Under the pieces are notes generated by a model, which ran no database searches, had not been told where the DNA came from, and worked only from the letters and a program-made list of their open reading frames with translations. From contig JAAXQE010000067.1 in the NCBI GenBank assembly GCA_012974425.1, forward strand, positions 1-58,164: DNA of 58,164 bases. Reading direction: 5' to 3'. The stretch is from Geopsychrobacter sp. GTDB lineage: Bacteria > Desulfobacterota > Desulfuromonadia > Desulfuromonadales > Geopsychrobacteraceae. A program made the position numbers and the translations under genes. Below, in pieces: positions 5,938 to 31,818 of the stretch (position 1 is the stretch's first letter; every line of letters begins with the position of its first letter).

Positions 5938-7578
5938 ATGAGTTTGATAGGCAACCTTGAAGACTTGGGTCTCGGCGATATCCTGCAGATTGTCAGTCTC
6001 AGTCAAAAATCAGGAGTCCTCTCGCTGACCTGTGGTGAGCGAGAAGGACTTATCGTTTTTATCGAAGGCACAATTGTTGGCGCCGTTTCCAGTCAGTTTA
6101 AATCTACCCTGGGCGACATTCTGCTTAGACATAAATTGCTAAGTCAGCAAACTCTCGATCAGGCGCTTGATGAAAAGAACAGGTCTGGACACCGTTCTTT
6201 GGGTCCGCTCCTTATTTCGCAATATAAGATTTCACCTGAAAAGCTGGAAGCGATCGTTAAGGCTCAAATTGAGCGAACTGTTTACAGCTTCTTTGGTTGG
6301 GAAGAGGGCAGTTTCAAGTTTCAACTTGATGGAGAGGACGCACATGATCTGTTGCGACTCGATGCTCAGGAATTCATGCTCGAACAGGGTCTAAGTGCTC
6401 AATGGCTGGTCGCTGAGGGGCGTCGTCTTGTTGCTGAGGGGCGTCTGATTTCAGCTGACAAGGACGAGTCTGTAAACGAACAAACCCTAGCCGATACGTT
6501 TTCTCCTAATGCTCCACTCGCTTCTGCTGAAGGTGTAGAGAGTGGGTTGCTATTTATTATTGATGATGATGCCCCGACACGCTCTGTTCTTCAAAAAGCC
6601 TTTATAGGGTCGGGGTTTGAGGTTGAGGTTTTCACACTCACTTCTGACCTGATAAAAGCCTGTAGTGACAGGGTCAAACAGGGATACCGGCCGGCGATCT
6701 TGATCGATCTGATTATGCCGCGGCTTGATGGACATGGGATTTTGGGTGGCCTCGAAGTCATGGAGATCGTTGCGGACAAGTTTTCCGGGTTGCCGATGCT
6801 GTTGATGACTGATCATCCCAATGCCGAAGCGGAAAGAAAAGCTCAGGAACTGGGTGGCCTCGCGGTATTGCGTAAGCCCAAAAAAGTTGAAATACGTAAT
6901 GAGCGCGGCATCGATGCCTTGAAGAATCTGCTCGTTGAAGTCGACCGTTATTTGGGGCCAGCCGGGTCAAGACGCAGACCTGCAACTGATGACAGCGTCG
7001 CAGGCAAGAGCCTGGATGATGAGCCCGATACGCTAGAGCAGGGGAGTGGCCTGCCTGAGGGCTCCCCGGGGCTTTATTTGCTAAAAGGAATGTTGCAGGA
7101 GTTGTCAAGCCCGTTGCTCAGCGGTGGAGTCATTCTGCTGATTCTCCGTTTCGCCAGTGAGCTGCTGAACCGGGCGGTTATTTTTAATGTTAACGGTTCT
7201 GAAATTGTCGGGATTGGTCAATTTGGCCTGGATGCGACCACTGAAAATGCCGATCGGATGGTACGAAAACTACGCCTTTCGGTCGATGCTGATTCACTTA
7301 TTTCGCAGGCTCTACGCCAGAAAACTTCAATCAAGGGAGTGTTTGGCACCTGTGCATCGGATCGGGAATTGCTTACATGTCTGGGTGGTGTTGAGCCCAG
7401 CGAAATTTTTCTTGGTCCATTAGTCAGTAACGGTAAGACCGTAGCTCTTCTCTATGGAGACAACATCCCTGAGTCGAAGCCTGTTGGTAATGTCGAGGCT
7501 TTTGAGGTTTTTCTTGCGCAAGCCGGAATGGCCATGGAAGATTTACTTCAGGAGCGGGCAATTGAAAATTCAATCTGA
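5938..7578 (+). CDS. DUF4388 / receiver / GAF-like signalling protein
   Basis: 546 aa, cytoplasmic, no membrane segment. Residues 1-150 form a DUF4388 (PatA-like N-terminal) domain, opening MSLIGNLEDLGLGDILQIVS; such domains occur in chemosensory-linked regulators. Residues about 203-340 are a CheY-type receiver with acidic pair D209-D211, phospho-acceptor D257 (ILIDLIMPR) and K313 (LRKPKK). Residues about 365-540 look GAF-like and would sense a small molecule or partner; the ligand is unknown. There is no output domain such as HTH or GGDEF, so it likely acts through protein contacts. First gene of the cluster, about 100 bp after der. Domains are well supported; role is inferred from context. 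Confidence 0.8.
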   Translation: MSLIGNLEDLGLGDILQIVSLSQKSGVLSLTCGEREGLIVFIEGTIVGAVSSQFKSTLGDILLRHKLLSQQTLDQALDEKNRSGHRSLGPLLISQYKISPEKLEAIVKAQIERTVYSFFGWEEGSFKFQLDGEDAHDLLRLDAQEFMLEQGLSAQWLVAEGRRLVAEGRLISADKDESVNEQTLADTFSPNAPLASAEGVESGLLFIIDDDAPTRSVLQKAFIGSGFEVEVFTLTSDLIKACSDRVKQGYRPAILIDLIMPRLDGHGILGGLEVMEIVADKFSGLPMLLMTDHPNAEAERKAQELGGLAVLRKPKKVEIRNERGIDALKNLLVEVDRYLGPAGSRRRPATDDSVAGKSLDDEPDTLEQGSGLPEGSPGLYLLKGMLQELSSPLLSGGVILLILRFASELLNRAVIFNVNGSEIVGIGQFGLDATTENADRMVRKLRLSVDADSLISQALRQKTSIKGVFGTCASDRELLTCLGGVEPSEIFLGPLVSNGKTVALLYGDNIPESKPVGNVEAFEVFLAQAGMAMEDLLQERAIENSI

Positions 7579-7629
7579 GAACGGCACGTTGAGACGAGGG
7601 TTTGATTTGAGCGGCAAGGGAGTGTTTCT

Positions 7630-7995
7630 TTGAAGAAAATTTTGGTCGCAGAGGATTCCGCCGCGATGCGTGGCTTGATTGTCTCTACCCTTGAAGCGAT
7701 GGAGTGTTGCGAGGTTGTAGAGGCATGTAATGGCTTTGAGGCATTGCGTATGTTGCCCCGCGAAAAAGTCGACTTGATTGTAACCGATATCAATATGCCT
7801 GATATAAATGGGCTTGAGCTTGTTAATTTCTGTCGAAACAATCCACTTTATCAGGCTACCCCGATGATCATTATTAGTACTGAAGGCAGTGAGCGGGATC
7901 GGGAGAAGGGGTTAGCGCTCGGGGCAGATGCTTACCTAATCAAGCCTTTTCGCCCTGCAGATCTCCAGCAACTTATTCGTAAGCTGCTTCACTAA
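7630..7995 (+). CDS. CheY-like single-domain response regulator (copy 1)
   Basis: 121 aa receiver with nothing after it. Key residues: E8-D9, phospho-acceptor D53 (VTDINMP), T84 and K105 (LIKPF). Start is TTG at 7630, with AAGGGAG 7-8 nt upstream; there is no better ATG before the conserved first strand. Directly before cheA (12-bp gap), so it is the likely phosphate acceptor of that kinase. It resembles the CheY at 18362 (shared VTDINMP, RN-P-Y, TEG, LALGA) more than the one at 11697. Confidence 0.88.
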   Translation: MKKILVAEDSAAMRGLIVSTLEAMECCEVVEACNGFEALRMLPREKVDLIVTDINMPDINGLELVNFCRNNPLYQATPMIIISTEGSERDREKGLALGADAYLIKPFRPADLQQLIRKLLH

Positions 7996-8007
7996 GCGGG
8001 AGCAGTT

Positions 8008-10065
8008 ATGGGATCAAGACAGCAGGTTGACGAATTTCTCGCCGAAGCGGAAGAACTGCTTGAAAAGTTGAGTCAGGATCTGGCTGAGCTCGGTGAGGGG
8101 ATTGAAAATGGTGATGTCAACCCCGAGCTGGTAAATGGTATTTTCCGTGACGCTCATTCAATGAAGGGGCTGGCGGGGATGTTTGGCTTTGATGATATCG
8201 CCGAACTTGCCCATCACCTTGAAGATTTACTTGATAAACTGCGGCTCGGTAAAATTTCATTGAACAGGATACTGCTCGATCTGTTGTTCGAGACCATTGA
8301 AGGCGTTGGTTTGTTGGTCCGGGGGAAGGCCGGTGATCCTGATTACACCATAAATGTTGCACCTTATGTACAGCGTATCGGGGATTTGTTAGCAGGGCCG
8401 GATGACAATTCTGCAATTACACTGGAAGCTCTCAATCTTGACGTTGCATTGCTTAATGTCTTGACTGAATATGAAGAACATCGGCTCCAGGAGAACCTGA
8501 CTCAGGGGAGACTCTTGCTGCTCGTTAGTGTTGCATTCCCGCTCGATAGTTTTGATACTGATCTTTCGGATGTTATCGGTGAATTAAAGCATGTCGGTGA
8601 AGTCGTCAGTACTTTGCCGGGAGCAGCAAATGCTGATCCCTCATCTTTGGCCTTTCGCATCCTCTTTGCGTGTAAAATTCCCCTGGAAAACTTATCCGCA
8701 ACCCCCGGCTTGAGCGATTGTTGTTTCGAGACAGTTTCGCCGGCTCCCCCCGTGTCTGTCTCTGTCCCTGCCCCAGTTCTAGCGGGCGTGTCAAAAGGAT
8801 TAACTCAGGCAGAACAACCGCTACCTCAGGAAGCACCCCTGCAACAGACAGGTGAAGATACTTCATTACGTTCAGTCAGTCACTCTGTTCGGGTTGATAT
8901 CGGTAAGCTGGACATTCTCATGAACCTTGTTGGGGAGCTCGGTCTGGTGAAGGGCGGTATCGCACAGGTGGCTTCAGATCTGTCAAATTCGGGGGTTGCT
9001 CAAGCATGTGACCTTGAAAAGAGTGTACATTCACTTGAGCGTCGACTCGCTGAACTGCAGAAGGCGGTTATGGATGTACGGATGGTGCCGGTTCGCCAGC
9101 TGTTTGACAAGATGGGGCGAATCATTCGGCGTATGGCCCAGGAATTAGGCAAGAAGGTTGAGTTGAAAACCTTCGGCTCTGAAACTGAGTTTGATAAGTT
9201 GATTGCTGAAGAGCTGGCTGACCCCTTGATGCATATTATCCGTAATGCTCTCGATCATGGGATCGAGTCCGGGACCGAAAGACTGGCGGCCGGGAAGGCA
9301 GAAGTTGGCTGTATAGAATTACGCGCAACCCAGCGCGGCAATCACGTCGTCCTCGAAATCGCGGATGACGGGAAGGGGATCGACTCTGAGGTGTTGAGAC
9401 GAAAAGGGATAGAGAGAGGTCTGGTCGATTCCGATACCCAGATATCGCGACGGAATTTATTTGGATTACTTTTTCATCCTGGTTTTTCAACGCGTGACGA
9501 AGTTAGTGAGTATTCGGGACGTGGAGTTGGGATGGACGTGGTCAAGAACAACATCTCGGCCCTGTCCGGTATTATCGATATTGACAGCACCTATGGGCAG
9601 GGGACTCAGATCAGTCTGACCTTGCCGATTACGCTGGCAATTATCAAGGCACTGGTTGTTCGTATCCAGGGACGTGATTATGCCATACCGCTGACCTCCG
9701 TCCTTGAGACCCTGCTGCTTGAGCCGGGGATGATTCAAACGATAGAAGGGCAGGAGGTTGTTGAGCTTCGTCGGAGTACCTTGCCGTTGCTGCGCTTGAA
9801 TCAATTATTTAATCTGGATGGACAAACTTCCTCGGGCGGTGATTTTGTGGTTGTTGCCGGTTTTGCCGGGCGCAGGATCGGGATTGTTGTGGAAGAACTC
9901 CGTGGCCAGCAGGATGTCGTTATCAAGTCCCTTGGGAAGTCACTCTCTTTTGTAAAAGGGATCGCTGGGGCCGCTGATCTTGGTAATCAGAAGACAGTTC
10001 TGGTGCTCGATGTCAGCAGTTTGATAACCGATTTATTACGTGGGGATACAGGTTTGAATGTATAG
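8008..10065 (+). CDS. cheA: Chemotaxis-type histidine kinase CheA
   Basis: 685 aa cytoplasmic kinase. The Hpt domain (1-130) has the phosphorylated His50 in RDAHSMKG. A P2-like response-regulator-docking segment covers about 165-235, then a Pro-rich linker. The dimerisation helix is about 293-365. The HATPase runs 366-545, with N box HIIRNALDHG (409-418), ADDGKGID (452-459) and the GRGVGMD box (504-510). The last 135 residues are a CheW-like domain. GGGAG lies 6 nt before the ATG. The end overlaps the next gene by 8 bp. No receptor gene is nearby, so its input must come from a receptor elsewhere or from an unusual partner in this cluster. Confidence 0.94.
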   Translation: MGSRQQVDEFLAEAEELLEKLSQDLAELGEGIENGDVNPELVNGIFRDAHSMKGLAGMFGFDDIAELAHHLEDLLDKLRLGKISLNRILLDLLFETIEGVGLLVRGKAGDPDYTINVAPYVQRIGDLLAGPDDNSAITLEALNLDVALLNVLTEYEEHRLQENLTQGRLLLLVSVAFPLDSFDTDLSDVIGELKHVGEVVSTLPGAANADPSSLAFRILFACKIPLENLSATPGLSDCCFETVSPAPPVSVSVPAPVLAGVSKGLTQAEQPLPQEAPLQQTGEDTSLRSVSHSVRVDIGKLDILMNLVGELGLVKGGIAQVASDLSNSGVAQACDLEKSVHSLERRLAELQKAVMDVRMVPVRQLFDKMGRIIRRMAQELGKKVELKTFGSETEFDKLIAEELADPLMHIIRNALDHGIESGTERLAAGKAEVGCIELRATQRGNHVVLEIADDGKGIDSEVLRRKGIERGLVDSDTQISRRNLFGLLFHPGFSTRDEVSEYSGRGVGMDVVKNNISALSGIIDIDSTYGQGTQISLTLPITLAIIKALVVRIQGRDYAIPLTSVLETLLLEPGMIQTIEGQEVVELRRSTLPLLRLNQLFNLDGQTSSGGDFVVVAGFAGRRIGIVVEELRGQQDVVIKSLGKSLSFVKGIAGAADLGNQKTVLVLDVSSLITDLLRGDTGLNV

Positions 10066-10861
10066 GGAATTTTTTCAGCTGAAAGAGCGACCCTTTAGTA
10101 AAACACCGGACCCGCTTTATCTTTATCCCTCACGTACCCACAAGGAGGCCCTTGCGCGACTCTTGTATGCTGTAGAAGAACGCGAAATGATACTGCTTAC
10201 GGGAGATATAGGCTGCGGCAAAACAACTCTTTCCAGGGCATTGATAGATGAACTTGATGGGATCGCCAAGGTTGCTCTCCTGACTAACCCACGTCTTTCT
10301 CCGCTTGAATTTCTTTACAGCTTGGCGGTTAAGTTTGGTGTTGCTGAGCCCGCTCAGGATCGACTTGGTTTGCTGGAACAAATTGAGCAAGTTCTCTACC
10401 GTCTGTTTCGGAGTGGTTGTGTCCCGGTTTTGATTGTCGATGAGGCACATCTTATCCCGCATCGAGACACCTTTGAAGAGATTCGTCTTTTAACAAATTT
10501 TCAACTCGATGATGGTAATCTGCTCTCGGTTATTTTTATTGGGCAACCGGAGTTGAGGCAACGTTTGGCTCATCCGGTTTATGAGCCCTTACGGCAACGT
10601 ATCGGTTTGCAATTCAATATCGGACCTCTCAACCTGGAAGAGACCAGGGCTTATATATGTCACCGACTTCGTTGTGCCGGGGGCACTGCCGATATTTTTT
10701 TGGATCCTGCAGTCGTTGAGTTACATCGATTCTCGGATGGGGTGCCACGTCGTATCAACCAAGCAGCGTCCTTGGCACTGTTAGAGGCTTTTGGCCGGGG
10801 AGAGCCGCAGATTGGCTCGGGAATCATTAAAGAAGTTGTGGCTGAATTGTCAGGCATTTGA
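10058..10861 (+). CDS. ExeA/MshM-like AAA ATPase
   Basis: 267 aa. Starts MYREFFQLKERPFSKTPDP, the classic opening of ExeA-family ATPases, which act in type II secretion and pilus assembly. Walker A GDIGCGKTT is at 49-57, Walker B VLIVDEA at 124-130, and a sensor region is near IFIGQPELRQRL. It lacks the C-terminal peptidoglycan-binding domain of full-length ExeA. The gene overlaps cheA by 8 bp, so the two are translationally coupled, an unusual place for this family. It could link CheA signalling to a surface machine or act as a switch, but nothing in the sequence proves this. Confidence 0.85.
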   Translation: MYREFFQLKERPFSKTPDPLYLYPSRTHKEALARLLYAVEEREMILLTGDIGCGKTTLSRALIDELDGIAKVALLTNPRLSPLEFLYSLAVKFGVAEPAQDRLGLLEQIEQVLYRLFRSGCVPVLIVDEAHLIPHRDTFEEIRLLTNFQLDDGNLLSVIFIGQPELRQRLAHPVYEPLRQRIGLQFNIGPLNLEETRAYICHRLRCAGGTADIFLDPAVVELHRFSDGVPRRINQAASLALLEAFGRGEPQIGSGIIKEVVAELSGI

Positions 10862-10934
10862 GTGTTTTATTATTCTATTGAGCGCTTCTTCTGCTATAGT
10901 CGCAGAGTTGATTTAGATCTCGTCATAATCAGTA

Positions 10935-11618
10935 ATGGATCGGGTTGAATTGATGGATCTGGCTGAAATACGAAAAAAAGCACGTTCGCGAAGTGCCGAA
11001 GTGCCTGTGATTATACCCGTGCCCGAAGTTTCAACTGGAGCGGATGACGCATCTCGGGAATTTCAATTGCCTCAACCTGCCGAGAATCGCTTCTGGGATG
11101 AGATCGGCACTGAACAGTTTGCAACAGAAGAAGAGTATTTGCAGGGCTTAACAGAGTCAGGCGACGAGGAAGTTGAACAGGTTCAATGGTTGGGCTTCTA
11201 TCTTGGCAAAGAAGAGTATGCCCTTGATCTTGGAGTCGTCTCAGAGTTGATCAAACCGAGAGCATTGACCGAACTGCCACATGTCCCGGATTACGTTTGC
11301 GGAATTATCACCTTGCGCGGAGAGGTGATCCCGGTTATCGATTTGAAACAGCGACTCGGCCTCGACTATGGAACTCTATGTGCCCTTGACTTACAAAGGA
11401 TCATTATTTGTGAGGGGAAAGAGCAGCGGACTGGATTGTTGGTTGATAGAATTTCACAGGTTGTCCGTTTGCCGGAAGATGAGATTGAAGAACCGAACCT
11501 GGTCGGGGATGATCCGTCTGGAGCGTACATACAGGGGATTGGACGTAAGCAAGGAAGAATGTTCATCCAGTTACGCCCAGAAAGGGTAATTGAGATCGAA
11601 CAAATAGTTAGAAGCTAA
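10935..11618 (+). CDS. CheW adaptor with 80-residue N-terminal extension
   Basis: 227 aa. Residues about 83-225 are a CheW domain with the hallmark GIITLRGEVIPVIDLKQRLG; such proteins couple CheA to receptors. The first 80 residues are charged and low in complexity and not part of the fold. The given start is ATG 10935, but ATG 10953 (MDLAEIRKKAR) is equally likely since CheW relatives often begin this way; neither has a clear ribosome site. It keeps the NLRG-type motif that the second CheW of the cluster lacks. Confidence 0.87.
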   Translation: MDRVELMDLAEIRKKARSRSAEVPVIIPVPEVSTGADDASREFQLPQPAENRFWDEIGTEQFATEEEYLQGLTESGDEEVEQVQWLGFYLGKEEYALDLGVVSELIKPRALTELPHVPDYVCGIITLRGEVIPVIDLKQRLGLDYGTLCALDLQRIIICEGKEQRTGLLVDRISQVVRLPEDEIEEPNLVGDDPSGAYIQGIGRKQGRMFIQLRPERVIEIEQIVRS

Positions 11619-11696
11619 GTCTGTTCTAACCGATGTAGGTACACAGTTCGCCAGTAATTCAGTTGCCGGTGACGAAGCGTGGAGGGTGGTATTCAA

Positions 11697-12071
11697 ATGC
11701 AGAAAAAAGTACTGATTGTCGAAGATGAAGAGAGCTTGTTGAAACTGGAAAGTATCCTGCTGACAACCAAAGGCTATCTTGTTCAGGGAGTGACTTCAGG
11801 CCTGGCTGCTCTGGAAGCAGTCAATGAAGAAATACCCGACCTTATTCTGCTTGATGTCATGTTGCCCAAGATGGATGGTTTTGAGGTGTGCAGCCGCTTG
11901 AAGGGTGATCCTGCGACTAAGAACATTCCGGTTGTTCTTTTGACGGCCAAGAAAACACCCGAAGATCTTGCACGTGGCGAAGAGGTTGGTGCCGATCACT
12001 ACATTACCAAGCCCTTCAAGTCTGCCATGGTCATTGATATTATTGAGCAGCTTATTGGTAAAAATCGTTGA
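11697..12071 (+). CDS. CheY-like single-domain response regulator (copy 2)
   Basis: 124 aa receiver only. Acidic pair E9-D10, phospho-acceptor D53 (LLDVMLPKMDGFEV), T84 and K105 (YITKPF). ATG 11697 is chosen because GGAGGGTGG lies at 11681-11689; a GTG at 11679 in frame is ahead of that site and is not needed. Its core is of the OmpR/PhoB-like type and differs from the two other CheYs of the cluster, so it may have a separate job such as phosphate sink or a different partner. Two bases separate it from the next CheW. Confidence 0.9.
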   Translation: MQKKVLIVEDEESLLKLESILLTTKGYLVQGVTSGLAALEAVNEEIPDLILLDVMLPKMDGFEVCSRLKGDPATKNIPVVLLTAKKTPEDLARGEEVGADHYITKPFKSAMVIDIIEQLIGKNR

Positions 12072-12073
12072 CA

Positions 12074-12586
12074 ATGAAGTCTTTGCCATCAGTCCAGAGG
12101 GGGGCTGTCGATGAAATAAAGCTGGCCTGCCTGCGCGTAGGGTCAGTTTTTTATGCTCTGGATATCATGAAGATCCGCGAGATCATTCGACCGGAACCGA
12201 TTGTTCAGGTGCCTCGCTCCCCGCTCTATGTCGATGGGGTTATTAACTTACGCAAAGCAGTTATCCCGGTTGTTGACCTGCGTCGCCGGTTTGGCTCTGA
12301 ACCCCGTGATGAACCTCACGAAAGAATCATAATTTGTTCCGTAGATTGCCGGATTGTCGGTCTGGTGGTTGATGAAGTCAGTGAGGTTGTCGCTTTTACC
12401 TCTGATGAGATTCAACCCGCACCCTATTATATGTCGAGTTGGGAGAGCGGTTTTTTCCCTGGTGTTTGCAGGCATAAAGGAAATCTTTTGTTATTGATAG
12501 ATCTGCGCAAAATTTTATCTAGTGATCAGAGGATTGATGTCAGTCTTATCCAGGAACAGGCACTTGAGGGTGCAGCGAAAGATTAA
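12074..12586 (+). CDS. CheW adaptor, single domain
   Basis: 170 aa, a CheW domain over nearly the whole length. The conserved loop reads GVINLRKAVIPVVDLRRRFG: Lys replaces the Gly of the usual NLRG, a position close to the kinase/receptor contact surface. Start chosen at ATG 12074; a TTG six bases earlier overlaps the stop of the preceding CheY. Having a second CheW beside the CheW domain of CheA and the extended CheW suggests a mixed or layered signalling array. Confidence 0.88.
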   Translation: MKSLPSVQRGAVDEIKLACLRVGSVFYALDIMKIREIIRPEPIVQVPRSPLYVDGVINLRKAVIPVVDLRRRFGSEPRDEPHERIIICSVDCRIVGLVVDEVSEVVAFTSDEIQPAPYYMSSWESGFFPGVCRHKGNLLLLIDLRKILSSDQRIDVSLIQEQALEGAAKD

Positions 12587-12592
12587 GTGCCA

Positions 12593-13417
12593 ATGATTAT
12601 TGCTTGTCCAAAGTGCCAGAAAAAGCTCCGGATTGACGCTGCCAAGTATGCTGGGAAAAATCTTTCTCTGACCTGCCGTAACTGTACGCAGAACTTCCCT
12701 TTCGTTGTGCATGCTTCCTCAAAAGTTCTGGTTGCTCATGGTGAGCCTGAGGTCTGTCAGGATATTCTAGACCTTTGTTGTCAAGATTTAGGTGAAATTC
12801 TGACCTGTAACGATGCCGATACGGCCAGACAGTATCTTGGTTGCCATGCGGTCTCCGCGTTACTTCTTGATGTTGCTCTGCCTGGCGCATTTCCTTTTCA
12901 ATTGATTGAGGAGATTCAACGTCGCGGAGAATCGATAAAGATCATTCTGCTCCCGTCGGTTTATAATCGTACGGCGTATAAGCGTAAGCCCTCTTCACTT
13001 TACGGTGCCGATGCTTATCTTGAACTTCATCATCTGCCGGATCGTCTTATCCCGTTGTTACACGAATTAGTGCCCGAATTGAGCCTAAAGAGTAAACCCT
13101 GCTGTGCAATGAGTGACAAGGTGAAGGGACGGGCACTTCCTGTCGATGCTGATGCCAGGCAGCAGGCTGAAGAGCTCTCACGTCTATTGATCGCTGATAT
13201 AGCTCTTTACCATCAGGAACAGATCGATCTGGGGATTGTCCAAAAGGATCTGGCAACACGCCTGGCTAGCCAGTTGGAAGAGGGGAGGCGGATGTTGGCT
13301 TGCCGAATTCCTCAGGCTGAGCTGGATAGGCAGGATTACATCCTTTCTGCACTTGAATGTTTTGCGACCGCGCGTGAAAGGGAATTGCGTGCCGGGGAAG
13401 AGGATTGCCATGGATGA
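12593..13417 (+). CDS. Zinc-ribbon plus degenerate receiver protein
   Basis: 274 aa, soluble. Residues 1-37 are an MJ0042-type zinc ribbon (CPKC at 5-8, CRNC at 28-31). Residues about 43-165 follow a receiver pattern, with D93 in LLLDVALPG in the phospho-acceptor place. The acidic pair is reduced (VAHGEPE) and the conserved Lys-Pro is absent (AYLELHHLPD), so phosphorylation is doubtful. The C-terminal 100 residues are charged and helical and unknown to me. ATG 12593 is preferred over GTG 12587 because ribbon proteins of this type begin MIIxCPxC. Ends 8 bp inside the HEAT gene. Confidence 0.72.
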   Translation: MIIACPKCQKKLRIDAAKYAGKNLSLTCRNCTQNFPFVVHASSKVLVAHGEPEVCQDILDLCCQDLGEILTCNDADTARQYLGCHAVSALLLDVALPGAFPFQLIEEIQRRGESIKIILLPSVYNRTAYKRKPSSLYGADAYLELHHLPDRLIPLLHELVPELSLKSKPCCAMSDKVKGRALPVDADARQQAEELSRLLIADIALYHQEQIDLGIVQKDLATRLASQLEEGRRMLACRIPQAELDRQDYILSALECFATARERELRAGEEDCHG

Positions 13418-15431
13418 AAAGGCACTGCTGATTCAGGAGCAACTTACATCGTCTGACAGTGAGGTGCGCATTGCGGCAACTCGGCAACTTGCCAGGCTGA
13501 CTGCACCGTCTGTAGACCTGTTTATCTCCAGCCTTGGCGACCCGGATTGGCGGGTCCGTAAGGCTGCTATTGAAACATTTCAGGAGCTTTCTCACTCTGC
13601 AGAAAACATTCAAGATCTGATCAGGCTGCTTTACCATCCAGAAAACGCGGGGCTGCGCAACGCTGCGATCGAAATCTTGATTGGGTTTGGTTCTTTAGCT
13701 GTTGAGCAGTTACGCAGCGAAATATTTAAACCAGATGTTGAGGTCCGAAAATTTGTTATAGATATCCTGGGTGAGATTTGCGATCCAGGCTGTGCGCCGG
13801 ACTTAATCGTTTGTTTGCACGATGCGGATATAAACGTCCGTTATGCAGCAGCTGAAACTCTGGGTAAGTTGAAGGCTGAGGCAGCGGTTGAGCCTCTCAT
13901 GGCACTAATGGCCGATCCGGATCCCGGGCTCAAATTTACAATTCTGCAATCCCTTTCACAGATAGGGGGGAGCATCCCGACAGACCGCCTTTTTGTCTAT
14001 CTGGATGATCGCTTGCTTCGCAAAGCCTTGTTTGATTGTTTCGCAAGGGTCGGTGGGAGCGAGGTGGTGCCTCCACTTATCGAGGGTCTGTGTGACCCAA
14101 TGCGTCAAGTCCGTGAAGCCGCGTTGAGTGCCCTTGATATGTTGCGTGTACGGGAAATTCATACCATAAAAAGAGTCTTGGTCGACGCCGATCTGGAGCA
14201 GATTTCAGCTGACCTTGAACTGATTTTCTCCGGGGAGAAGCTGCAACTGAAGACAGCCGCTCTTGCACTCTATGGAGACGTTGGGGCCGAGCGCGATCTC
14301 TCATTGCTGCTTAACTGTTTTTCAGAAGAAGGTCTGCGCTCTCATGCGTTGAATACGTTCTCTGCTCTTGGTGAAGAGCCGTTTGCGCGCCTGGTGGATC
14401 TGTTTGATTCCGTAGATCAATTACAGACCCTTTATCTTATCTTCGCAGGGGGGGAACTCGGTTTTGTGTCGGTGCTTCCGATAGCGGTTATGGCCTCTCA
14501 ATCGAACGATCCTCAGCTCAGGAATACCGCAGCAAGAGCTATTGGTGCATTGGGGGGTGGTGAGCATCTCGACTTGTTACTGCGCCTGCTCGACGATGAA
14601 ATAACCGACATCCAGAATGCCGCTGCAGCCGCAGTCGCGACGCTTGCCAGGCGCAACAAGACATGCGTTCTGCCTCGGATCTCCTCAATGTTTAACGATC
14701 CCGATGCTGAAAAGCGGATGCGCGTGGTGCGGATTCTCGGCTTGATTGACGGAGAGGGGATTGAGGCACTTTTGTTGAAAGCCTTCAAGGATTCTTCGGC
14801 AACTGTGCGTTGTGAAGCTATCCGGGCCTTAAATGGTCATTTTAGTGAGGTTGTGATCTCTGGACTAACCTTGGCGCTGACCGATGAGTCTGGTGAGGTC
14901 CGACGATTGGCAGTTAGCGCTCTTGGCCAATGCCCGCAAGAGCAGGCCCTGCCAGCATTGACCCTTGCCGCAGCGGATGCCGATTTTTGGGTGCGGGCCG
15001 CGGTGATGCGTGTTTTGGCGGTTTTCCCAGGCGAAAACGTCCGAAATCTGTTGCTGAATGCCTTAATCGATCCCGTCGGCTTGGTGGTTATTGCTGCCCT
15101 GGAAAGTTCTGTTTCCGTTTTGCCCGATGAGTGTCGCAGTTTGTTGGAAGAGGCCTTGATTCATCCAGATGAAGAGGTGGTTAAGGTCGCAATGGATCAA
15201 CTCTCACGCATTCTTGACTGGGATTGGATCGCTCCTTTTTGTGCAGATTTGCTGAATCATGCTCATTGGGATGTGCGTCTGCATGCGGCAAATTTCCTTG
15301 GTCGCAGTGAAATTAATGGGAAGTCTAGACTTCTTGAAGAAAGGTTGGCCGTTGAGGGCGAGGCCCCTGTGCGTCAGGCGATAGAGTCTGCCATCTCCGG
15401 TAGGTTGCGTACCGATAGTCAGGGCTGTTAG
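13410..15431 (+). CDS. HEAT-repeat protein of the chemosensory-like cluster
   Basis: 673 aa built almost wholly of HEAT/PBS-lyase-type helical repeats with a period of about 30-35 residues; recurring pieces include VRKAAIETF, VRYAAAETLGKL, VREAALSALDML and VRRLAVSALGQ. No catalytic motif, signal peptide or membrane segment. Such proteins act as scaffolds, and HEAT proteins are known beside some che clusters of delta-proteobacteria. The frame runs open from 13236, but the true start is ATG 13410 (MDEKALLIQEQL), preceded by GGGGAAGAGG and overlapping the previous gene by 8 bp. Its stop abuts the cheR start. Partner unknown. Confidence 0.85.
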   Translation: MDEKALLIQEQLTSSDSEVRIAATRQLARLTAPSVDLFISSLGDPDWRVRKAAIETFQELSHSAENIQDLIRLLYHPENAGLRNAAIEILIGFGSLAVEQLRSEIFKPDVEVRKFVIDILGEICDPGCAPDLIVCLHDADINVRYAAAETLGKLKAEAAVEPLMALMADPDPGLKFTILQSLSQIGGSIPTDRLFVYLDDRLLRKALFDCFARVGGSEVVPPLIEGLCDPMRQVREAALSALDMLRVREIHTIKRVLVDADLEQISADLELIFSGEKLQLKTAALALYGDVGAERDLSLLLNCFSEEGLRSHALNTFSALGEEPFARLVDLFDSVDQLQTLYLIFAGGELGFVSVLPIAVMASQSNDPQLRNTAARAIGALGGGEHLDLLLRLLDDEITDIQNAAAAAVATLARRNKTCVLPRISSMFNDPDAEKRMRVVRILGLIDGEGIEALLLKAFKDSSATVRCEAIRALNGHFSEVVISGLTLALTDESGEVRRLAVSALGQCPQEQALPALTLAAADADFWVRAAVMRVLAVFPGENVRNLLLNALIDPVGLVVIAALESSVSVLPDECRSLLEEALIHPDEEVVKVAMDQLSRILDWDWIAPFCADLLNHAHWDVRLHAANFLGRSEINGKSRLLEERLAVEGEAPVRQAIESAISGRLRTDSQGC

Positions 15432-16310
15432 ATGTTTATTTTCAGTAGCGATATCCCGCTTGCAACGGAGGAGTTCCGCCTGTTGCGGGATTTCATTTAT
15501 CAGTACTGCGGTATTTTTTTTGCGGATGAATCAAAATATCTGTTGGAAAAACGTCTCAATAAGCGTCTCGCTGAATTGCGCCTGAGCTGTTTTCGTGATT
15601 ACTACTACCAGTTACGCTATGGGCAGGGCCGCGAACAGGAACTTGCTGCTGCTATCGATCTTTTGACTACGAATGAAACGTATTTTTTTCGAGAAGACTT
15701 TCAGCTTAAAGCCTTTACCCAAGAGGTAATTCCTGAATTGATCAAGGTCAAGGCAGGAAGGGGAGATAGATCTTTGCGCATCTGGAGTGCAGGTTGTTCC
15801 AGCGGAGAAGAGCCATATACCCTGGCGATGTTACTGCTCGAAAATCCACAACTGCAAGGTTGGTCGATCGATATTATCGGTACAGATATCAGTCAGAGGG
15901 TTTTGAAAATTGCTCGAGAAGGTCTTTATGGCCAAAATTCTTTTCGGGCAACCGATGCAAGATACCTTGATCGTTATTTTGCTCCGGTTGAGCAGAAGTG
16001 GCAGATTTCCAATCAGGTGAAAGATCTGGTCTCAATCAGTCATCTCAATTTTTTTGATACGAATCGGGTTGCTCTGTTGGGTAACATGGATGCTGTTTTC
16101 TGTCGCAATGTAATAATCTATTTTGATCTGGCCGCTAAAAAGAAAGTCATACGTGCGCTGCATGACCGTTTATGCCCTGGCGGATACCTTATGCTCGGCC
16201 ATTCGGAATCGTTACTGAATATCAGTACCGATTTTAAGCTGCGCCATTTCACCAATGACATGCTCTATCAAAGGCCGGAAGGAGCATATGTGGCAGGAGG
16301 ACTACTCTGA
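15432..16310 (+). CDS. cheR: Chemotaxis protein methyltransferase CheR
   Basis: 292 aa; transfers methyl groups from S-adenosylmethionine to receptor glutamates. An all-helical N-terminal part is followed by the SAM site WSAGCSSGEEPYTLAM (from 118), then GTDIS and the FCRNVIIYF motif. The ATG follows the HEAT stop with no gap (TAGATG). No tetratricopeptide or beta-subdomain pentapeptide-binding extension beyond the core was noticed. Presence of CheR and CheB implies a methylated receptor, yet none is encoded here. Confidence 0.94.
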   Translation: MFIFSSDIPLATEEFRLLRDFIYQYCGIFFADESKYLLEKRLNKRLAELRLSCFRDYYYQLRYGQGREQELAAAIDLLTTNETYFFREDFQLKAFTQEVIPELIKVKAGRGDRSLRIWSAGCSSGEEPYTLAMLLLENPQLQGWSIDIIGTDISQRVLKIAREGLYGQNSFRATDARYLDRYFAPVEQKWQISNQVKDLVSISHLNFFDTNRVALLGNMDAVFCRNVIIYFDLAAKKKVIRALHDRLCPGGYLMLGHSESLLNISTDFKLRHFTNDMLYQRPEGAYVAGGLL

Positions 16311-17374
16311 TGGCGCCTCATATCAGGGTCTTGGTTGTTGATGATTCAGCATTTAACCGTGTCTCGCTCGGCAAGATGTTGGAGAAGATCCCCCGGGTTG
16401 AGGTTGTTGGTTACGCTGCGGATGGCGAGATCGGTTTGCGCAAAATAATCGATCTGAAGCCAGACCTGGTGACTCTCGATCTTGAAATGCCCAAGATGGG
16501 TGGCTTTAGCATGCTGCGTCTGGCGATGCAGAGTTGCCCGACTCCGGTAATCGTGATCTCCTCGCGCAGCAGTGAAGGGGATGTCTTTAAGGCTCTTGAG
16601 CTTGGGGCCATAGATTTTGTTGCCAAGCCATCAAGACCGATCAGTTCTCATTTTTATTCTATCCAGGGTGATTTGGAACGCAAGGTGCGGGATTTTTCAA
16701 ACTGCGCTCCAGGACAGTTTCACTTACCTCCGGCCCCTGATGTGATGGCTAGGCGCAAAATTTCTCTGGTTAACTCTAACCCTAACCCTCAGAAGTCGAA
16801 TTGTCCGCAGGCCGTTGTTATCGGTACTTCTACGGGTGGTCCGCCAGCATTACATACTTTTTTTTCCTCGTTTACCCATCTGCCTGACTTGGGCTTTGCT
16901 GTCGCGCAACATATGCCACCCGGCTTTACCCGTAGTTTTGCTGATCGCCTCAATGATCATTCTGTTTTTAAGGTAACCGAGGCTGCTAATGGCGATACTA
17001 TGAGGGCTGGGCATGTATATATCTGCCCTGGTGGGCGAAATATGCTGTTGCGAAAGGTTGCAGGGGAGGTCAAAATTCAGATTGTGACACCCTCTGCTGC
17101 ACAGATATATACTCCCTCAGTCGATGAGTTGTTTAGGTCTGCTTCTGTCGCTTATGGAGCGGATGTGCTCGGAATGATTCTCACCGGAATGGGAAATGAT
17201 GGTGCCGCTGGCACGCAAGCAATTCATGGGTCTGGGGGCCGAGTGATTGCTGAGGCCGAAGAGTCCTGCATTGTTTATGGTATGCCGAAAGAGGCTGTTG
17301 CCACAGGTTGTGTCAGTCAAGTGATCCCGCTTGGTGGATTATGTGAAGAGATATTGCGTTCTTGCCGTTGCTAG
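16310..17374 (+). CDS. cheB: Chemotaxis response regulator / methylesterase CheB
   Basis: 354 aa. Residues 1-125 form a receiver (D11-D12, phospho-acceptor D57, K106); residues about 165-350 form the methylesterase/glutamine deamidase domain with the triad S174 (GTSTGGP), H201 (QHMPPGF) and D297 (GMGNDGA). Removes methyl groups added by CheR, adapting the pathway. Its ATG shares one base with the cheR stop (TGATG), so the pair is translationally coupled. Complete, all catalytic residues kept. Confidence 0.95.
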   Translation: MAPHIRVLVVDDSAFNRVSLGKMLEKIPRVEVVGYAADGEIGLRKIIDLKPDLVTLDLEMPKMGGFSMLRLAMQSCPTPVIVISSRSSEGDVFKALELGAIDFVAKPSRPISSHFYSIQGDLERKVRDFSNCAPGQFHLPPAPDVMARRKISLVNSNPNPQKSNCPQAVVIGTSTGGPPALHTFFSSFTHLPDLGFAVAQHMPPGFTRSFADRLNDHSVFKVTEAANGDTMRAGHVYICPGGRNMLLRKVAGEVKIQIVTPSAAQIYTPSVDELFRSASVAYGADVLGMILTGMGNDGAAGTQAIHGSGGRVIAEAEESCIVYGMPKEAVATGCVSQVIPLGGLCEEILRSCRC

Positions 17375-17487
17375 AGGCTTATTATAGTTTTTTTTGAACA
17401 TTCCTGCTAGTATGCGATGTTTTTGTTTGTCGGGATTGATGATTCAGTTGAGTGACAGGTGCAGTTAGTCTTCATGCGGAGTTTTTT

Positions 17488-18294
17488 TTGACAGATAGCA
17501 GTGATTCTAATAATGTTCATTCTCGTGCTGAAGAGTTTCTTCAGGTCTTTAAGAAAGGTGCTGAATTTACTCAGGACCTGCTTAAGGAAAACGAACGATT
17601 ACGTTTCCGGTTGCTTGAACTCGAACAGAAAAATCGTGCTGAGGCAACGACCGTTGAGTTGCAATTGCTTAAACAGCAACTGCAGCTAGTCGAAGTTGAG
17701 AAAAAAAATATTTTAGATAAGATTGGAACTGTCGAACGGGAAAACCTCGATTTCACACATCGTTACGCTGAAATAGAAGCTGATAATAACCTGTTGGCGA
17801 ATCTCTATATTACAACTTATCAGCTACATTCTACATTTGAAGTAAGGGAAGTTTTCCGAGTTATTGAAGAAATATTGTTGAATCTTGTTGGTGCTGACGA
17901 GTGTTCACTCTTCTTCCGTGACGAAAACAACCTGTTAATTCAGTCGGTTATGAATGACGAAGGGGAGCCTGAGGTTCGGGTTGTTGGAAATAGTGACCCC
18001 CGGATTGACCTAGCGCTTACAGAAGGACAGATTTGGATTCCTGATTCTGAAGAGTTAGCGCAGCTAGATGAATCCGCAGTGAAGGCTGCAATCCCATTGT
18101 GGGTGGATGGTCATGTGATTGGCGTGCTCGCGATCTATCGTTTGCTGGCACAGAAAAATGGCTTTTCAGGGATAGACGAAGAGATATTTGGCTTGCTAGG
18201 AGAGCATGCTGCGATGGCGATCTGCACCGCTGTGTTGCGACAAGAGCATGACGGCCAAATCGATTTTAAACGAGGCTTCCTGGCCCGGACATGA
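17488..18294 (+). CDS. Coiled-coil plus GAF domain protein
   Basis: 268 aa, soluble. Residues about 10-100 form a long coiled coil rich in Leu, Glu, Lys and Gln (ENERLRFRLLELEQ, ELQLLKQQLQLVEVEKKN); residues about 110-255 are a GAF domain (TFEVREVFRVIEEILLNLV, then ECSLFFRD). No output domain. Start taken as TTG 17488, 7 nt after CGGAG; a GTG at 17452 is in frame but has no good ribosome site. The 113-bp gap after cheB may hold its own promoter, though I see no convincing one. Could act as a receptor-like input for the receptor-less cluster; that is inference. Confidence 0.75.
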   Translation: MTDSSDSNNVHSRAEEFLQVFKKGAEFTQDLLKENERLRFRLLELEQKNRAEATTVELQLLKQQLQLVEVEKKNILDKIGTVERENLDFTHRYAEIEADNNLLANLYITTYQLHSTFEVREVFRVIEEILLNLVGADECSLFFRDENNLLIQSVMNDEGEPEVRVVGNSDPRIDLALTEGQIWIPDSEELAQLDESAVKAAIPLWVDGHVIGVLAIYRLLAQKNGFSGIDEEIFGLLGEHAAMAICTAVLRQEHDGQIDFKRGFLART

Positions 18295-18361
18295 CCTGAT
18301 TATTTGATTTATTGCGTTTATATACAATTTGAAAAAAAAGCATGTCAGGAGGAAGGCTCGC

Positions 18362-18736
18362 ATGTCAGAATACAGAGTTTTAGTTGTTGAAGATTCACCA
18401 ACCATGCGCCAATTGATCGTATTTGCTCTTAAGAGAATTCGCAATCTTCATATCGAAGAGGCTGGGGATGGTGTCGGGGGACTAAAGAAATTGTCAGCAC
18501 AGAAGTTTGACCTGGTGGTCACAGATATCAATATGCCGATCATGGACGGCCTGAAATTGGTCAGCTTGATTCGGAATGACCCTCAATATCGGGATGTCCC
18601 GATTGTTGTCATAACTACTGAAGGTGCGACAGAGGACCGAGATCGCGCCCTCGCTCTTGGTGCCAATGAATATATTACTAAACCAATTCAGACTGCGCGT
18701 ATTCTGGAAGTCGCTAAAAAGATGCTGGGGATCTGA
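18362..18736 (+). CDS. CheY-like single-domain response regulator (copy 3)
   Basis: 124 aa receiver only. Acidic pair E10-D11, phospho-acceptor D55 (VTDINMP), T86 and K107 (YITKPI). ATG 18362 is fixed by AGGAGG at 18344-18349 inside a longer open frame that begins with TTG at 18329. Closely similar to the first CheY of the cluster, so the two look like paralogues placed at either end. Last gene of the cluster; infA follows after a separate promoter. Confidence 0.9.
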   Translation: MSEYRVLVVEDSPTMRQLIVFALKRIRNLHIEEAGDGVGGLKKLSAQKFDLVVTDINMPIMDGLKLVSLIRNDPQYRDVPIVVITTEGATEDRDRALALGANEYITKPIQTARILEVAKKMLGI

Positions 18737-18776: not shown

Positions 18777-18837
18777 GACGCTCGAAACCGTTATGATGGT
18801 CGTTTCTTAACGACTATCTGTATTTCAGGAGGAACAC

Positions 18838-19056
18838 TTGTCAAAAGAAGAAGCAATTGAGGTAGAAGGTGTGGTCGTTGAGCCACTGCCGAACGCGATG
18901 TTTCGCGTCAAGCTTGATAATGATCACGTTGTTCTGGCCCACATCTCTGGCAAAATGCGTAAATATTACATCCGCATTCTGCCAGGCGATCGTGTGACCG
19001 TTGAGCTTTCACCCTACGATCTGACCCGCGGTCGGATAACCTATCGCGCCAAGTAG
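18838..19056 (+). CDS. infA: Translation initiation factor IF-1
   Basis: 72 aa, standard length; an OB-fold protein that binds the A site of the 30S subunit during initiation. The sequence opens [20 protein letters not shown] and ends [12 protein letters not shown], as in other IF-1. Start codon is TTG, placed by AGGAGG at 18827-18832 five bases upstream; no ATG is available before the conserved region. Stands alone between its candidate promoter and a terminator hairpin at 19118. Confidence 0.96.
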
Positions 19057-27760: not shown

Positions 27761-28747
27761 ATGAATATCAAAGTAGCAGTTGATGCGATGGGTGGGGACT
27801 TTGCTCCGGTTTCTGAAGTAGCCGGAGCTGTCGCTGCCTGTCAACGTTGGGGTTGTGAAGTCGTGCTGGTTGGCGATGAGACCCTTTTGCGAGCTGAACT
27901 GGCGAAGCACCAGACCGATGGATTGAAGATTACGATTCATCACGCCAGCCAGGTTGTGGGGATGGAAGATTCCGCCTCGGATGCGGTTCGCAAAAAGAAA
28001 GATTCCTCGATACGTGTTGCTTTCGATCTGGTCAAGAGCGGAGACGCTCATGCTGTTGTCAGTACTGGTAACTCTGGTGCGACTATGGCCGCTGGAATGT
28101 TTGTTCTAAGACGTGTCAAGGGAATCGATCGGCCTGCAATCGGGACCCTGCTGCCAAATGTCAAGGGGATGACGTTGGTTCTCGATATGGGTGCTAACGT
28201 TGATTGCAAACCCTTGAATCTGCAACAATTTGCCATCATGGGCAGTTTGTATATGCAGCACGTTGTCGGGATCAAGGCGCCACGCATCGGTCTTCTTTCC
28301 AATGGCGAAGAAGAAAAAAAGGGGACTGAACTAACCCGTGAAGCCCATCGGCTGCTGTCTGAGACTGAGATCAACTATGTTGGCAACGTTGAGGGTGGAG
28401 ACGTCTTTAACGGTGCGGTTGACGTGGTCGTTTGCGATGGTTTTGTCGGAAATGTCTTGCTGAAGGTTTCTGAAGGGCTGGCTGTTGCAATGACCAGCAT
28501 GCTAAGGTCCGAGATAGAGAGTCGCTTTCTGTCAAAATTGGGGGCTCTCCTGAGTCGCAGTGCGTTTCGTGCTTTCAAGAAGAAGGTCGATCCCTGTGAG
28601 TATGGCGGTGCGCCCTTGTTGGGTCTAGCCGGGACCGGTGTTGTTTGTCATGGCAAGGCAACCCCTCTGGCGATTGCGATTGCGATTCGTCAGGCCCATG
28701 AATTCGCCGGTATCAAGATCGAAGAGAAGCTGGCTCACTCTATCTAG
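27761..28747 (+). CDS. plsX: Phosphate acyltransferase PlsX
   Basis: 328 aa; turns acyl-ACP plus phosphate into acyl-phosphate, the substrate of PlsY in phospholipid synthesis. The N-terminal [12 protein letters not shown] is the family signature; [12 protein letters not shown] and [19 protein letters not shown] follow. Peripheral membrane enzyme, length usual. Starts 24 bp after rpmF and leads into the fab genes, fitting its place as the branch point from fatty acid to phospholipid. Confidence 0.97.
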
Positions 28748-28791
28748 GATATGGTCTTGCCAGGTTAAGGCAGGATCTAGGGAGATTTGCT

Positions 28792-29775
28792 GTGATCAGA
28801 GCTCGTATTACGGGTACCGGTTCTTATATGCCGGAAAATATCCGGACCAACTTCGATATCGAGAAGATGGTCGACACCACCAATGATTGGATCGTTGCTC
28901 GCACCGGGATTAATGAACGCCGGATTGCTGCCGAGGGTGAATATACCTCCGATATGGCAACTCGTGCCGCTGAACGCGCCCTTGAGATGGCAGGTATTTC
29001 TGCCAGTGAGATTGATCTAATTGTCCTTGGCACCATTACTGGTGATTATCCCTGGCCTGCGACAGCCTGTATCGTGCAGAATAATTTAGCTGCAAATAAC
29101 GCTCATGCCTACGATATCTCTGCGGCATGTAGCGGTTTTGTCTATGCGCTTGGTTGTGCCAGTGATTTTTTGCAGGCCGGGCGCGGCAAGAAAGCCTTGG
29201 TTATTGGCGCTGAGACCCTGAGTCGCATCGTTGATTGGACCGATCGGAATACCTGTGTCCTCTTTGGTGATGGCGCCGGGGCTGTCGTTCTTGAAACGAC
29301 TGAGGAGTCTGATTTCGGCATCCTTTCATCTCACATGCATTCCGATGGCAGCTATCTCGATCTCCTCTATCAACCTGGCTTCGGTACCCGGATGACTCCG
29401 AGTGCCGAGAATATTGATAACCGTTCAGCGTACTTGAAAATGCAGGGCAATGAAGTCTTTAAGGTTGCTGTCCGTTCGCTGACCGATGTTTCACTGGAGG
29501 CACTCGAAGCTAACGGTATGAGCGCCAGTGATGTTTCGCTGTTTATCCCCCATCAGGCCAATAAGCGTATCCTTGAAGCGACAGCTAAACGGATTAAGCT
29601 GGACGATGATCAGGTCTATATAAATGTCCATAAGTATGGCAATACATCTGGTGCAACTATCCCGGTTGCTATGGATGAAGCCAATCGTGCCGGCATGCTT
29701 AAGTCGGGCGATATTGTGCTCTTGTCGGCCTTCGGCGGTGGATTTACCTGGGGTTCAACTCTGATTCGCTGGTAA
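28792..29775 (+). CDS. fabH: 3-oxoacyl-ACP synthase III
   Basis: 327 aa; condenses acetyl-CoA with malonyl-ACP to start fatty-acid synthesis. Catalytic triad: Cys113 (SAACSGFVYAL), His in PHQANKRI and Asn in NTSGATIP. Start is GTG 28792, preceded by GGGAG. Follows plsX by 44 bp and precedes fabD, the standard order. Complete. Confidence 0.97.
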   Translation: MIRARITGTGSYMPENIRTNFDIEKMVDTTNDWIVARTGINERRIAAEGEYTSDMATRAAERALEMAGISASEIDLIVLGTITGDYPWPATACIVQNNLAANNAHAYDISAACSGFVYALGCASDFLQAGRGKKALVIGAETLSRIVDWTDRNTCVLFGDGAGAVVLETTEESDFGILSSHMHSDGSYLDLLYQPGFGTRMTPSAENIDNRSAYLKMQGNEVFKVAVRSLTDVSLEALEANGMSASDVSLFIPHQANKRILEATAKRIKLDDDQVYINVHKYGNTSGATIPVAMDEANRAGMLKSGDIVLLSAFGGGFTWGSTLIRW

Positions 29776-29806
29776 TCTTACTAATTAAATCAACAGGACT
29801 ACACTG

Positions 29807-30727: not shown

Positions 30728-30763
30728 TCCTTTTGTTAGCCTCTGATTCGGGGAGCAAATATT

Positions 30764-31501
30764 ATGCTGGAAGGTAAGATTGCGATCGTCACGGGTGCTT
30801 CGCGTGGAATTGGTCGCTGTACCGCTCTGGAGCTGGCCAAAAGCGGCGCTGATCTGGTTGTTTGTGCCAGGTCTGAGGCTCCACTTAACGAGCTGGTTGC
30901 CGAGATTGAGGCCATGGGCCGCAAGGCTCTGGCCGTTGTGGTTGACGTAGTTAACCCAACGGATGTCGCTAACCTGATCGAACAGGCCCTTGCAACTTTT
31001 GGCAGGATCGATATCCTTGTCAACAATGCCGGGATTACGCGTGACGGACTCTTGTTGCGCATGAAAGATGCTGACTGGGATGCGGTCCTCGATACAAATC
31101 TCAAGAGTGCTTTTCTGTTGACACGTGCCGTCGCGAAGTCCATGAGTAAACAGCGCAGCGGAAGAATTATCAATATTTCATCGGTCGTTGGTGAAATGGG
31201 GAACCCGGGACAGGCTAATTACAGTGCCAGCAAGGCTGGACTGATTGGCTTGACCAAGTCGGTTGCCCGTGAACTGGCGCGCCGCAGCGTAACTGTTAAT
31301 GCGATAACACCCGGCTTTATTGAAACGGACATGACCGAGGACCTTGATGGGAAGGCACGAGCCGAGCTAGCCTCGCAGATCCCCCTCGGTCGTCTTGGTG
31401 GCGCAGAAGAGATCGCTCATGCCGTTATCTATCTCGCTTCGGATCGGGCCGGTTATGTAACCGGACAGGTTCTCGGCGTTAACGGCGGTATGTATATGTA
31501 A
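30764..31501 (+). CDS. fabG: 3-oxoacyl-ACP reductase
   Basis: 245 aa short-chain dehydrogenase using NADPH. The cofactor motif TGASRGIG is at 10-17; NNAGITRD, the active Ser (ISSVVGEMGNPGQ) and YSASKAGL follow; it ends GQVLGVNGGMYM as FabG does. Position between fabD and acpP supports FabG over other short-chain dehydrogenases. Confidence 0.96.
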   Translation: MLEGKIAIVTGASRGIGRCTALELAKSGADLVVCARSEAPLNELVAEIEAMGRKALAVVVDVVNPTDVANLIEQALATFGRIDILVNNAGITRDGLLLRMKDADWDAVLDTNLKSAFLLTRAVAKSMSKQRSGRIINISSVVGEMGNPGQANYSASKAGLIGLTKSVARELARRSVTVNAITPGFIETDMTEDLDGKARAELASQIPLGRLGGAEEIAHAVIYLASDRAGYVTGQVLGVNGGMYM

Positions 31502-31574
31502 CACTGATCATTATACGATCAAAACTTAGTCTATCTGACCTTTTATAGGTCTCAACGAAACAGGAGAAAAGCAA

Positions 31575-31808: not shown

Positions 31809-31818
31809 TTGATTGAGA

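Follow-up and report, generated by a model that had tools for sequence, protein, structure and literature searches.

An Esn/beta-group chemosensory cluster of Geopsychrobacter whose receptors are probably encoded elsewhere in the genome

Gene content and conservation of the locus

The stretch of DNA analyzed here (the window, 58,164 nucleotides of contig JAAXQE010000067.1 in the Geopsychrobacter sp. assembly GCA_012974425.1) holds a chemosensory cluster in which 13 plus-strand genes, at positions 5938-18736, encode one CheA, two CheW, three CheY, CheR, CheB, and five accessory proteins. This is the gene content that an earlier note had read from the letters of the sequence, and Pfam searches bear it out. 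The cluster is a member of the beta-group/Esn family described in Geobacter and its relatives and not a new system; we consider it likely that it is the Esn/beta-group chemosensory core of the Desulfuromonadia, with receptors encoded elsewhere, insulated, and acting on surface growth. Neighboring genes overlap by at most 8 bp or are separated by gaps of 0 to 77 bp. As the earlier note had also said, the 13 proteins have no match at E≤0.001 to the Pfam families of methyl-accepting chemotaxis proteins (MCPs), CheC, CheD, CheX, or CheZ. Its statement that flagellar genes are lacking holds for the cluster but not for the genome, where a FliG gene lies on another contig.

The first gene (P0001, 5938-7578) encodes a protein with a DUF4388 domain, which we take to be the PATAN domain, followed by a receiver (both by Pfam) and by a GAF-like C-terminal part that has no Pfam match and was called from the sequence. 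A putative MshEN-like module is inserted at residues 55-113, as indicated by an NCBIfam motif for binding of cyclic di-GMP (c-di-GMP) and by a VIA-align match to the GSPII-B domain of PilF. Next come a CheY (Y1; P0002, 7630-7995) and an EsnC-like CheA (P0003, 8008-10065) with Hpt, dimerization, HATPase, and CheW domains, in which His49 of P1 and the N, G1, and G2 boxes are kept. The cheA gene overlaps by 8 bp the gene for an AAA_22/ExeA-like ATPase (P0004, 10058-10861), GSU2221-like by position, which scores 233.9 bits against TIGR03015, under the cut-off of 324.5. A CheW with an N-terminal extension, EsnB-like by position (P0005, 10935-11618), a second CheY (Y2; P0006, 11679-12071), and a second CheW (P0007, 12068-12586) follow. 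Further on are a zinc-ribbon protein (P0008, 12587-13417), a HEAT-repeat protein (P0009, 13410-15431), the CheR methyltransferase (P0010, 15432-16310), the CheB methylesterase with a receiver and with its catalytic motifs kept (P0011, 16310-17374), a coiled coil-GAF protein (P0012, 17452-18294), and a last CheY (Y3; P0013, 18329-18736), all assigned by Pfam. The phosphoacceptor aspartate is kept in all three CheY proteins and is invariant in the alignments: D53 of Y1 in 153 of 153 sequences, D59 of Y2 in 120 of 120, and D66 of Y3 in 83 of 83. For the HEAT gene, the most likely start is the ATG at 13410, which gives an 8-bp overlap with the preceding gene, and not 13236, the first start of the open reading frame.

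The zinc-ribbon protein combines a Zn_ribbon_4 domain with a receiver-like part that falls under the Pfam cut-off and with a C-terminal segment. Its cysteines C7, C10, C30, and C33 are retained in no fewer than 95% of the 80 sequences aligned; the receiver-like part is a pseudo-receiver in which, by reading of the sequence, the usual acidic pair is replaced. The C-terminal segment (residues ~185-270) matches open frames of ~100-140 amino acids in other genomes, and the N-terminal part matches separate proteins of ~170-185 amino acids.

Upstream, the cluster is flanked by rnc-era-der, and downstream by an infA-like frame and then leuS, lptE, holA, and murJ. The short infA-like frame (initiation factor 1; ~18835-19056, plus strand), between the last cheY and leuS, was identified by eye alone; comparable frames are present in L083, L084, and L106 (L and G numbers are our labels for loci and genomes). 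Farther downstream, at 27761-38989, lie plsX-, fabH-, fabD-, and fabF-like genes (by their Pfam domains) and then ribD- and ribBA-like genes, ordinary housekeeping functions.

A CheA match at E≤1e-120 was found in 201 of 277 genomes of the class. For counts of gene content, loci were taken as closed when der and leuS lay on one stretch, which was so for 112 of 164 stretches (the window included), 107 of them distinct by CheA; the other 52 were left out. This sample is not random: CheA matches were the basis for choosing most loci and zinc-ribbon or coiled-coil-GAF matches for a few, and 80 were taken as the top relatives of a single Geobacter CheA. In all 107, a version of the cluster sits between der and leuS. 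The profile search for the same gene set that the earlier note had proposed finds all 13 genes in 41 of these loci, and most of the others have the same gene order with some genes missing. Such conserved content and order lead us to reject a chance clustering of the 13 genes. CheA was detected in 106 loci and CheR and CheB in 103 each, followed by the ATPase (101), Y1 (101), HEAT (99), PATAN (96), and Y2 (75) genes. The conserved co-occurrence of accessory genes on which the earlier note had made its reading depend is thus clear for the ATPase, HEAT, and PATAN genes; it is weaker for the zinc ribbon (49), the coiled-coil GAF (50), and Y3 (57). These last three tend to covary, the coiled-coil-GAF gene being present in 46 of the 49 zinc-ribbon loci and Y3 in 49 of the 50 coiled-coil-GAF loci. 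HEAT is accompanied by CheR and CheB in 99 of 99 loci; in four other loci that have CheR and CheB, no HEAT gene was detected. Geobacter sp. AOG1 (L141, the same place as L161) has all 13 genes.

Receptors elsewhere in the genome and their tips

On other contigs of the same genome there are nine MCP genes that pass the Pfam cut-off and two matches that are weaker. One of them (L096) has GAF and MCPsignal domains by Pfam after an N-terminal segment that is hydrophobic by a crude hydropathy measure. Its neighbors read as genes for phosphofructokinase and a Crp-type regulator, from inspection and not from a family-library search. We take pfkA to be a neighbor of GSU1704 in Geobacter sulfurreducens as well; a literature search for GSU1703 together with phosphofructokinase found no paper. 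Among 98 relatives, the N-terminal part of L096 is matched in 48 of the 58 with the cluster CheA versus 2 of the 40 without it. This architecture is that of EsnA (GSU1704), a GAF-MCP of G. sulfurreducens that is encoded away from the cluster and makes two-hybrid contact with EsnB and EsnC (PMC5585712). Accordingly, the term receptor-less in the earlier note describes the cluster and does not extend to the system: the relative uses an orphan receptor, and the Geopsychrobacter genome has L096 and two further MCPs with the same tip.

That tip is NAAIIAA[Q/K]AG in L096, L098, and L099, and NAAVEAARAG in four other MCPs (L091-L094). In Tsr, E385 and R388' form an ionic lock between receptor dimers (PMC8144572). 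The changes in the NAAIIAA tip fall on these two positions, the Glu being replaced, and the Arg replaced in 27 of the 28 copies read (Q in 21, K in 6, R in 1). Since this tip is without the Glu, and nearly always without the Arg, of the lock between dimers, an array built from such receptors is probably insulated. No statement linking the tip to this cluster was met in the literature, in searches that were not aimed at such a link.

As a pattern in DNA, NAAIIAA occurs in 194 of the 201 class genomes that have CheA versus 22 of the 76 without it, and by genus in 58 of 59 versus 5 of 23. Among the 98 relatives the figures are 58 of 58 versus 8 of 40. (G070, with a truncated CheA match of E 3.3e-117, counts as positive in the 98-genome tables and as negative in the 277-genome table.) The association of NAAIIAA with CheA is strong, though this is not an independent-sample test. 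As a control, the canonical motif NAA[IV]EAA shows no clear link, with 53 of 58 versus 31 of 40 (p=0.08).

Hits to the DNA pattern were inspected in 20 fetched loci, among them L261-L266, which had been chosen as doubtful-looking. There was no MCP-like tip at the pattern in five (L261, L263, L264, L265, and L266), of which L261 is one of four pattern matches in the Geopsychrobacter genome. In the other 15, the MCP was confirmed by Pfam for L267, L269, and L274 and by location for L262, and the rest were judged from the context of the tip. Of the eight CheA-negative relatives with the pattern, four (G025, G028, G038, and G043) are non-MCP matches. Another, G009, has a reduced cluster and a real NAAIIAA MCP; G039 and G068 have EsnA-type receptors in genomes that are 78-80% complete; and G004, 71% complete, carries the coiled-coil-GAF gene. 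Among the 22 pattern-bearing CheA-negative genomes of the class, 9 were inspected and 13 were not.

The canonical receptors bring in one other possibility, that the cluster is an auxiliary flagellar chemotaxis pathway that uses ordinary receptors. The genome does have FliG and four MCPs with the NAAVEAARAG tip. Against this, FliG is absent from 29 of the 58 relatives with CheA versus 8 of the 40 without, the canonical tip does not clearly track the cluster, and the CheC, CheD, CheX, and CheZ families are unmatched in it, so that we regard the idea as very improbable. Likewise, a conserved flagellar output is unlikely when FliG is present in 29 of 58 relatives with CheA versus 32 of 40 without, and the presence of the cluster does not follow that of flagella. 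The suggestion in the earlier note of a delta-proteobacterial che system of a non-swimming kind has stood up, both in these counts and in the surface growth for which the Geobacter relative acts.

Reduced clusters bear on whether receptors are needed at all. In four of the 107 loci (L083, L084, L105, and L106) CheR, CheB, and HEAT are absent together. The first three retain CheA, PATAN, Y2, coiled-coil GAF, and Y3, and have lost the ATPase and Y1 as well; in L106 (G092), a decaying cluster between der and leuS, no CheA was found and the PATAN frame is disrupted, with Y2 and the coiled-coil GAF still open. None of the four genomes (G009, G085, G046, and G092) has an EsnA-type match; the NAAIIAA pattern is absent from three of them, and in G009 a single MCP carries it. 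This pattern of joint loss agrees with CheR, CheB, and HEAT being tied to receptors, and a receptor-free mode is possible in the reduced forms. It could be argued further that the array is receptor-independent in general, with the PATAN-receiver-GAF and coiled-coil-GAF proteins feeding CheA and MCPs optional. Both proteins have GAF or GAF-like parts, and in L083, L084, and L105 CheA is kept with PATAN, Y2, coiled-coil GAF, and Y3 in genomes where the EsnA-type receptor is unmatched and, for G046 and G085, the NAAIIAA motif too. The full clusters, that of the window included, nonetheless retain cheR and cheB, genes for enzymes whose established substrates are MCPs, and are found together with a single class of MCP tip; the reduced forms represent two lineages alone (G009 and the genus of G085, G046, and G092), and G009 still has its NAAIIAA-tip MCP. 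Moreover, EsnA is required in G. sulfurreducens (PMC5585712). We therefore hold a receptor-independent array to be distinctly unlikely, and a necessary role as inputs for the GAF proteins of the cluster, which the earlier note had named as possible inputs, is unsupported, the Geobacter relative using the orphan GAF-MCP EsnA.

The PATAN protein, c-di-GMP, and the proposed array

Residues 58-110 of P0001 score 39.9 bits against the MshE-related c-di-GMP motif NF053729 of NCBIfam (cut-off 38), and 28 of 29 aligned N-domains, P0001 included, match it at E≤0.001. With an AlphaFold2 model of the N-domain (mean predicted local distance difference test score 86.6), Foldseek returned nothing significant (the best of the 538 rows with E≤10 is at 0.14, and none reaches 0.001). 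When the top Foldseek chains were realigned by VIA-align, the PilF GSPII-B domain with c-di-GMP (8pdk, 8pfa) came first, with Z 5.8 and a root mean square deviation of 1.4 Å over 57 residues (model residues 55-113); by the tool's own scale a Z under 8 is middling. A phmmer search of residues 42-157 against solved structures (E≤1) found 12 sequences, all PilF, PilB, or MshE; the matches are weak: for PilF, the best, E is 0.0005, no individual segment passing, and for MshE E is 0.026. On the MshEN consensus as we take it to be, the majority of orthologs keep the signature positions, with G66 in 83, Q80 in 111, and R87 in 79 of 123 aligned sequences. We thus read an MshEN-like module in P0001, degenerate in this copy, with putative c-di-GMP binding. 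A limited look at the literature, including the parts consulted of PMC5812497 and PMC7690835, met no statement of a link between PATAN and MshEN.

Other observations touch on the same signal. The genome has a paralogue of the coiled-coil-GAF protein (L102 516-1886, plus strand) with receiver, PilZ, coiled-coil, and GAF parts, and longer open frames of this kind are matched in 54 of 98 relatives, PilZ having been checked in L102 alone. This receiver-PilZ paralogue is a hint of c-di-GMP signaling. The second CheA of the genome (L103 549-2822, minus strand) has two short MshE-type-like repeats before its dimerization domain, which score 30.6 on the NCBIfam c-di-GMP motif, under the cut-off of 38. 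The PATAN domain of Synechocystis regulators binds the pilus ATPase PilB (PMC10519157), and we infer a link of the PATAN protein to both pili and c-di-GMP.

The mechanism that we propose would begin with the EsnA-like GAF-MCP and the two other NAAIIAA-tip MCPs forming an array with the CheA and both CheW proteins of the cluster, presumably insulated from the ordinary chemotaxis receptors of the same cell. CheR and CheB, perhaps with the HEAT protein, would adjust the receptors. CheA would hand phosphate on to the three CheY proteins as well as the PATAN-receiver-GAF protein, and the outputs would lie in surface growth, possibly by way of matrix or of type IV pili, with a tie to c-di-GMP. Our likely reading, an Esn/beta-group core with unlinked receptors, extends only tentatively to a sharper version, which may well prove wrong: that the NAAIIAA receptors form a private array unable to mix with ordinary ones, and that P0001 merges CheA phosphorylation with c-di-GMP before the pilus motor.

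Several observations weigh against this interpretation. Ten of the 58 CheA-bearing relatives lack an EsnA-type receptor, and at two other EsnA loci the neighborhood varies, L260 having a pfkA-like neighbor and L259 not, with a Crp-like gene in neither of the stretches examined. Seven CheA-positive genomes lack an exact NAAIIAA, and five of these (G137, G139, G155, G255, and G273) have a completeness of 95% or more; the genomes counted are also related, so that the counts overstate the independence of the association of NAAIIAA with CheA. The residues after the tip number 195-197 in EsnA types versus 222-246 in the other NAAIIAA receptors, and such unequal C-terminal arms are awkward for one common array. 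In P0001 the signature positions are changed from the ortholog majority (G66K, Q80K, and R87S), and the NF053729 motif is weak or absent in copies from reduced clusters (18.0 bits in L083, no match in L084). Finally, the likeness to Esn of G. sulfurreducens PCA is one of gene order and architecture, and it covers EsnA, EsnB, EsnC, and the ATPase.

Several chemosensory arrays per cell are common in bacteria, which raises the question, still without an answer, of how receptors are kept out of the wrong one. With the tip signature, an apparently receptor-less cluster gains a testable list of receptors, and insulation a two-residue hypothesis. The MshEN-like module in the PATAN regulator would, if true, connect CheA signaling directly to c-di-GMP, and a connection to pili, if true, would run via the contact between PATAN and PilB known in cyanobacteria. 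These points are of relevance for the way in which electroactive bacteria become committed to growth on surfaces such as electrodes. To judge from a search of print that was not exhaustive, what seems to be added here is the assignment of receptors by tip, the pattern of joint loss, and the MshEN-like module in PATAN.

Comparison with known systems

Two other kinds of cluster were considered and rejected by Pfam content: a Dif-like cluster, as the 44H MCP, CheC, and CheD are not in this one, and a Frz-like cluster, as P0003 has no receiver domain and hence no CheA-CheY fusion.

A resemblance outside Geobacter and its relatives is to Che8 of Myxococcus xanthus (MXAN_4751-4759), which in the published table is without an MCP and has the order CheY-CheB-CheR-(two tags)-CheW-CheW-CheA-CheY, a mirror of the present cluster in its CheY, CheA, two CheW, CheR, CheB, and CheY (PMC3945109). 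CheA8 takes part in the phosphorylation of MXAN_4468, which reduces transcription of groEL (PMC9040617), and by analogy the CheA of this cluster might phosphorylate an unlinked receiver protein governing transcription, that of chaperonin genes being one example. The likeness is one of published gene order alone, and even there the tags of CheA8 and CheW8b are consecutive, with no ATPase gene between them (PMC3945109). The relative in Geobacter, moreover, has an electrode-growth phenotype (PMC5585712), and a gene-expression system of the Che8 type strikes us as unlikely.

The tax systems of Synechocystis (PixG, PilG, and TaxP2) are alike in that a regulator of a che system carries a PATAN domain (PMC10519157). 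They differ in that those regulators are PATAN-CheY proteins, whereas here the arrangement is PATAN-receiver-GAF, within a block of 13 genes whose receptors are unlinked, and the phylum is another one.

The beta-group che clusters of Tran 2008 were described as having cheA, cheW, cheB, and cheR without an mcp, and as conserved across delta-proteobacteria, with a matrix phenotype in G. sulfurreducens that was cited as unpublished (PMC2577667); all five Desulfuromonas genomes of a later paper are reported to have them (PMC8235581). The cluster of the window has the same four kinds of gene, the 11 MCP matches of its genome all lie on other contigs, and its conservation extends over Geobacter and related bacteria, with CheA in 201 of 277 genomes of the class and with the named Geobacter loci. 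It resembles cluster 5 of G. sulfurreducens in its che gene set without an mcp, a match by gene content; in the sections of Tran 2008 consulted, receptors are not assigned and the accessory genes are not analyzed (PMC2577667).

The earlier note had looked to whether an identical cluster with an assigned function exists in a close relative, and an equivalent one largely does, as the Esn/beta-group cluster of G. sulfurreducens. There, transposon sequencing found GSU2220 (CheW, EsnB), GSU2221 (ATPase), and GSU2222 (CheA, EsnC) important for electrode growth, and clean deletions of esnA-D impair growth on electrodes and not on Fe(III) oxide (Chan 2017, PMC5585712). EsnD is a diguanylate cyclase (PMC5585712), the loss of esnD lowers c-di-GMP and raises cyclic GMP-AMP (cGAMP; PMC6456294), and an esnB insertion raises a cGAMP reporter (PMC8835794). 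The electrode phenotype belongs to G. sulfurreducens, and the Geopsychrobacter cluster is known from its genes alone. What the two share is an unlinked EsnA-like GAF-MCP, recognized by its architecture alone and not by the sequence of GSU1704, and the adjacency of CheA, ATPase, and CheW, in the same order as GSU2222-GSU2221-GSU2220.

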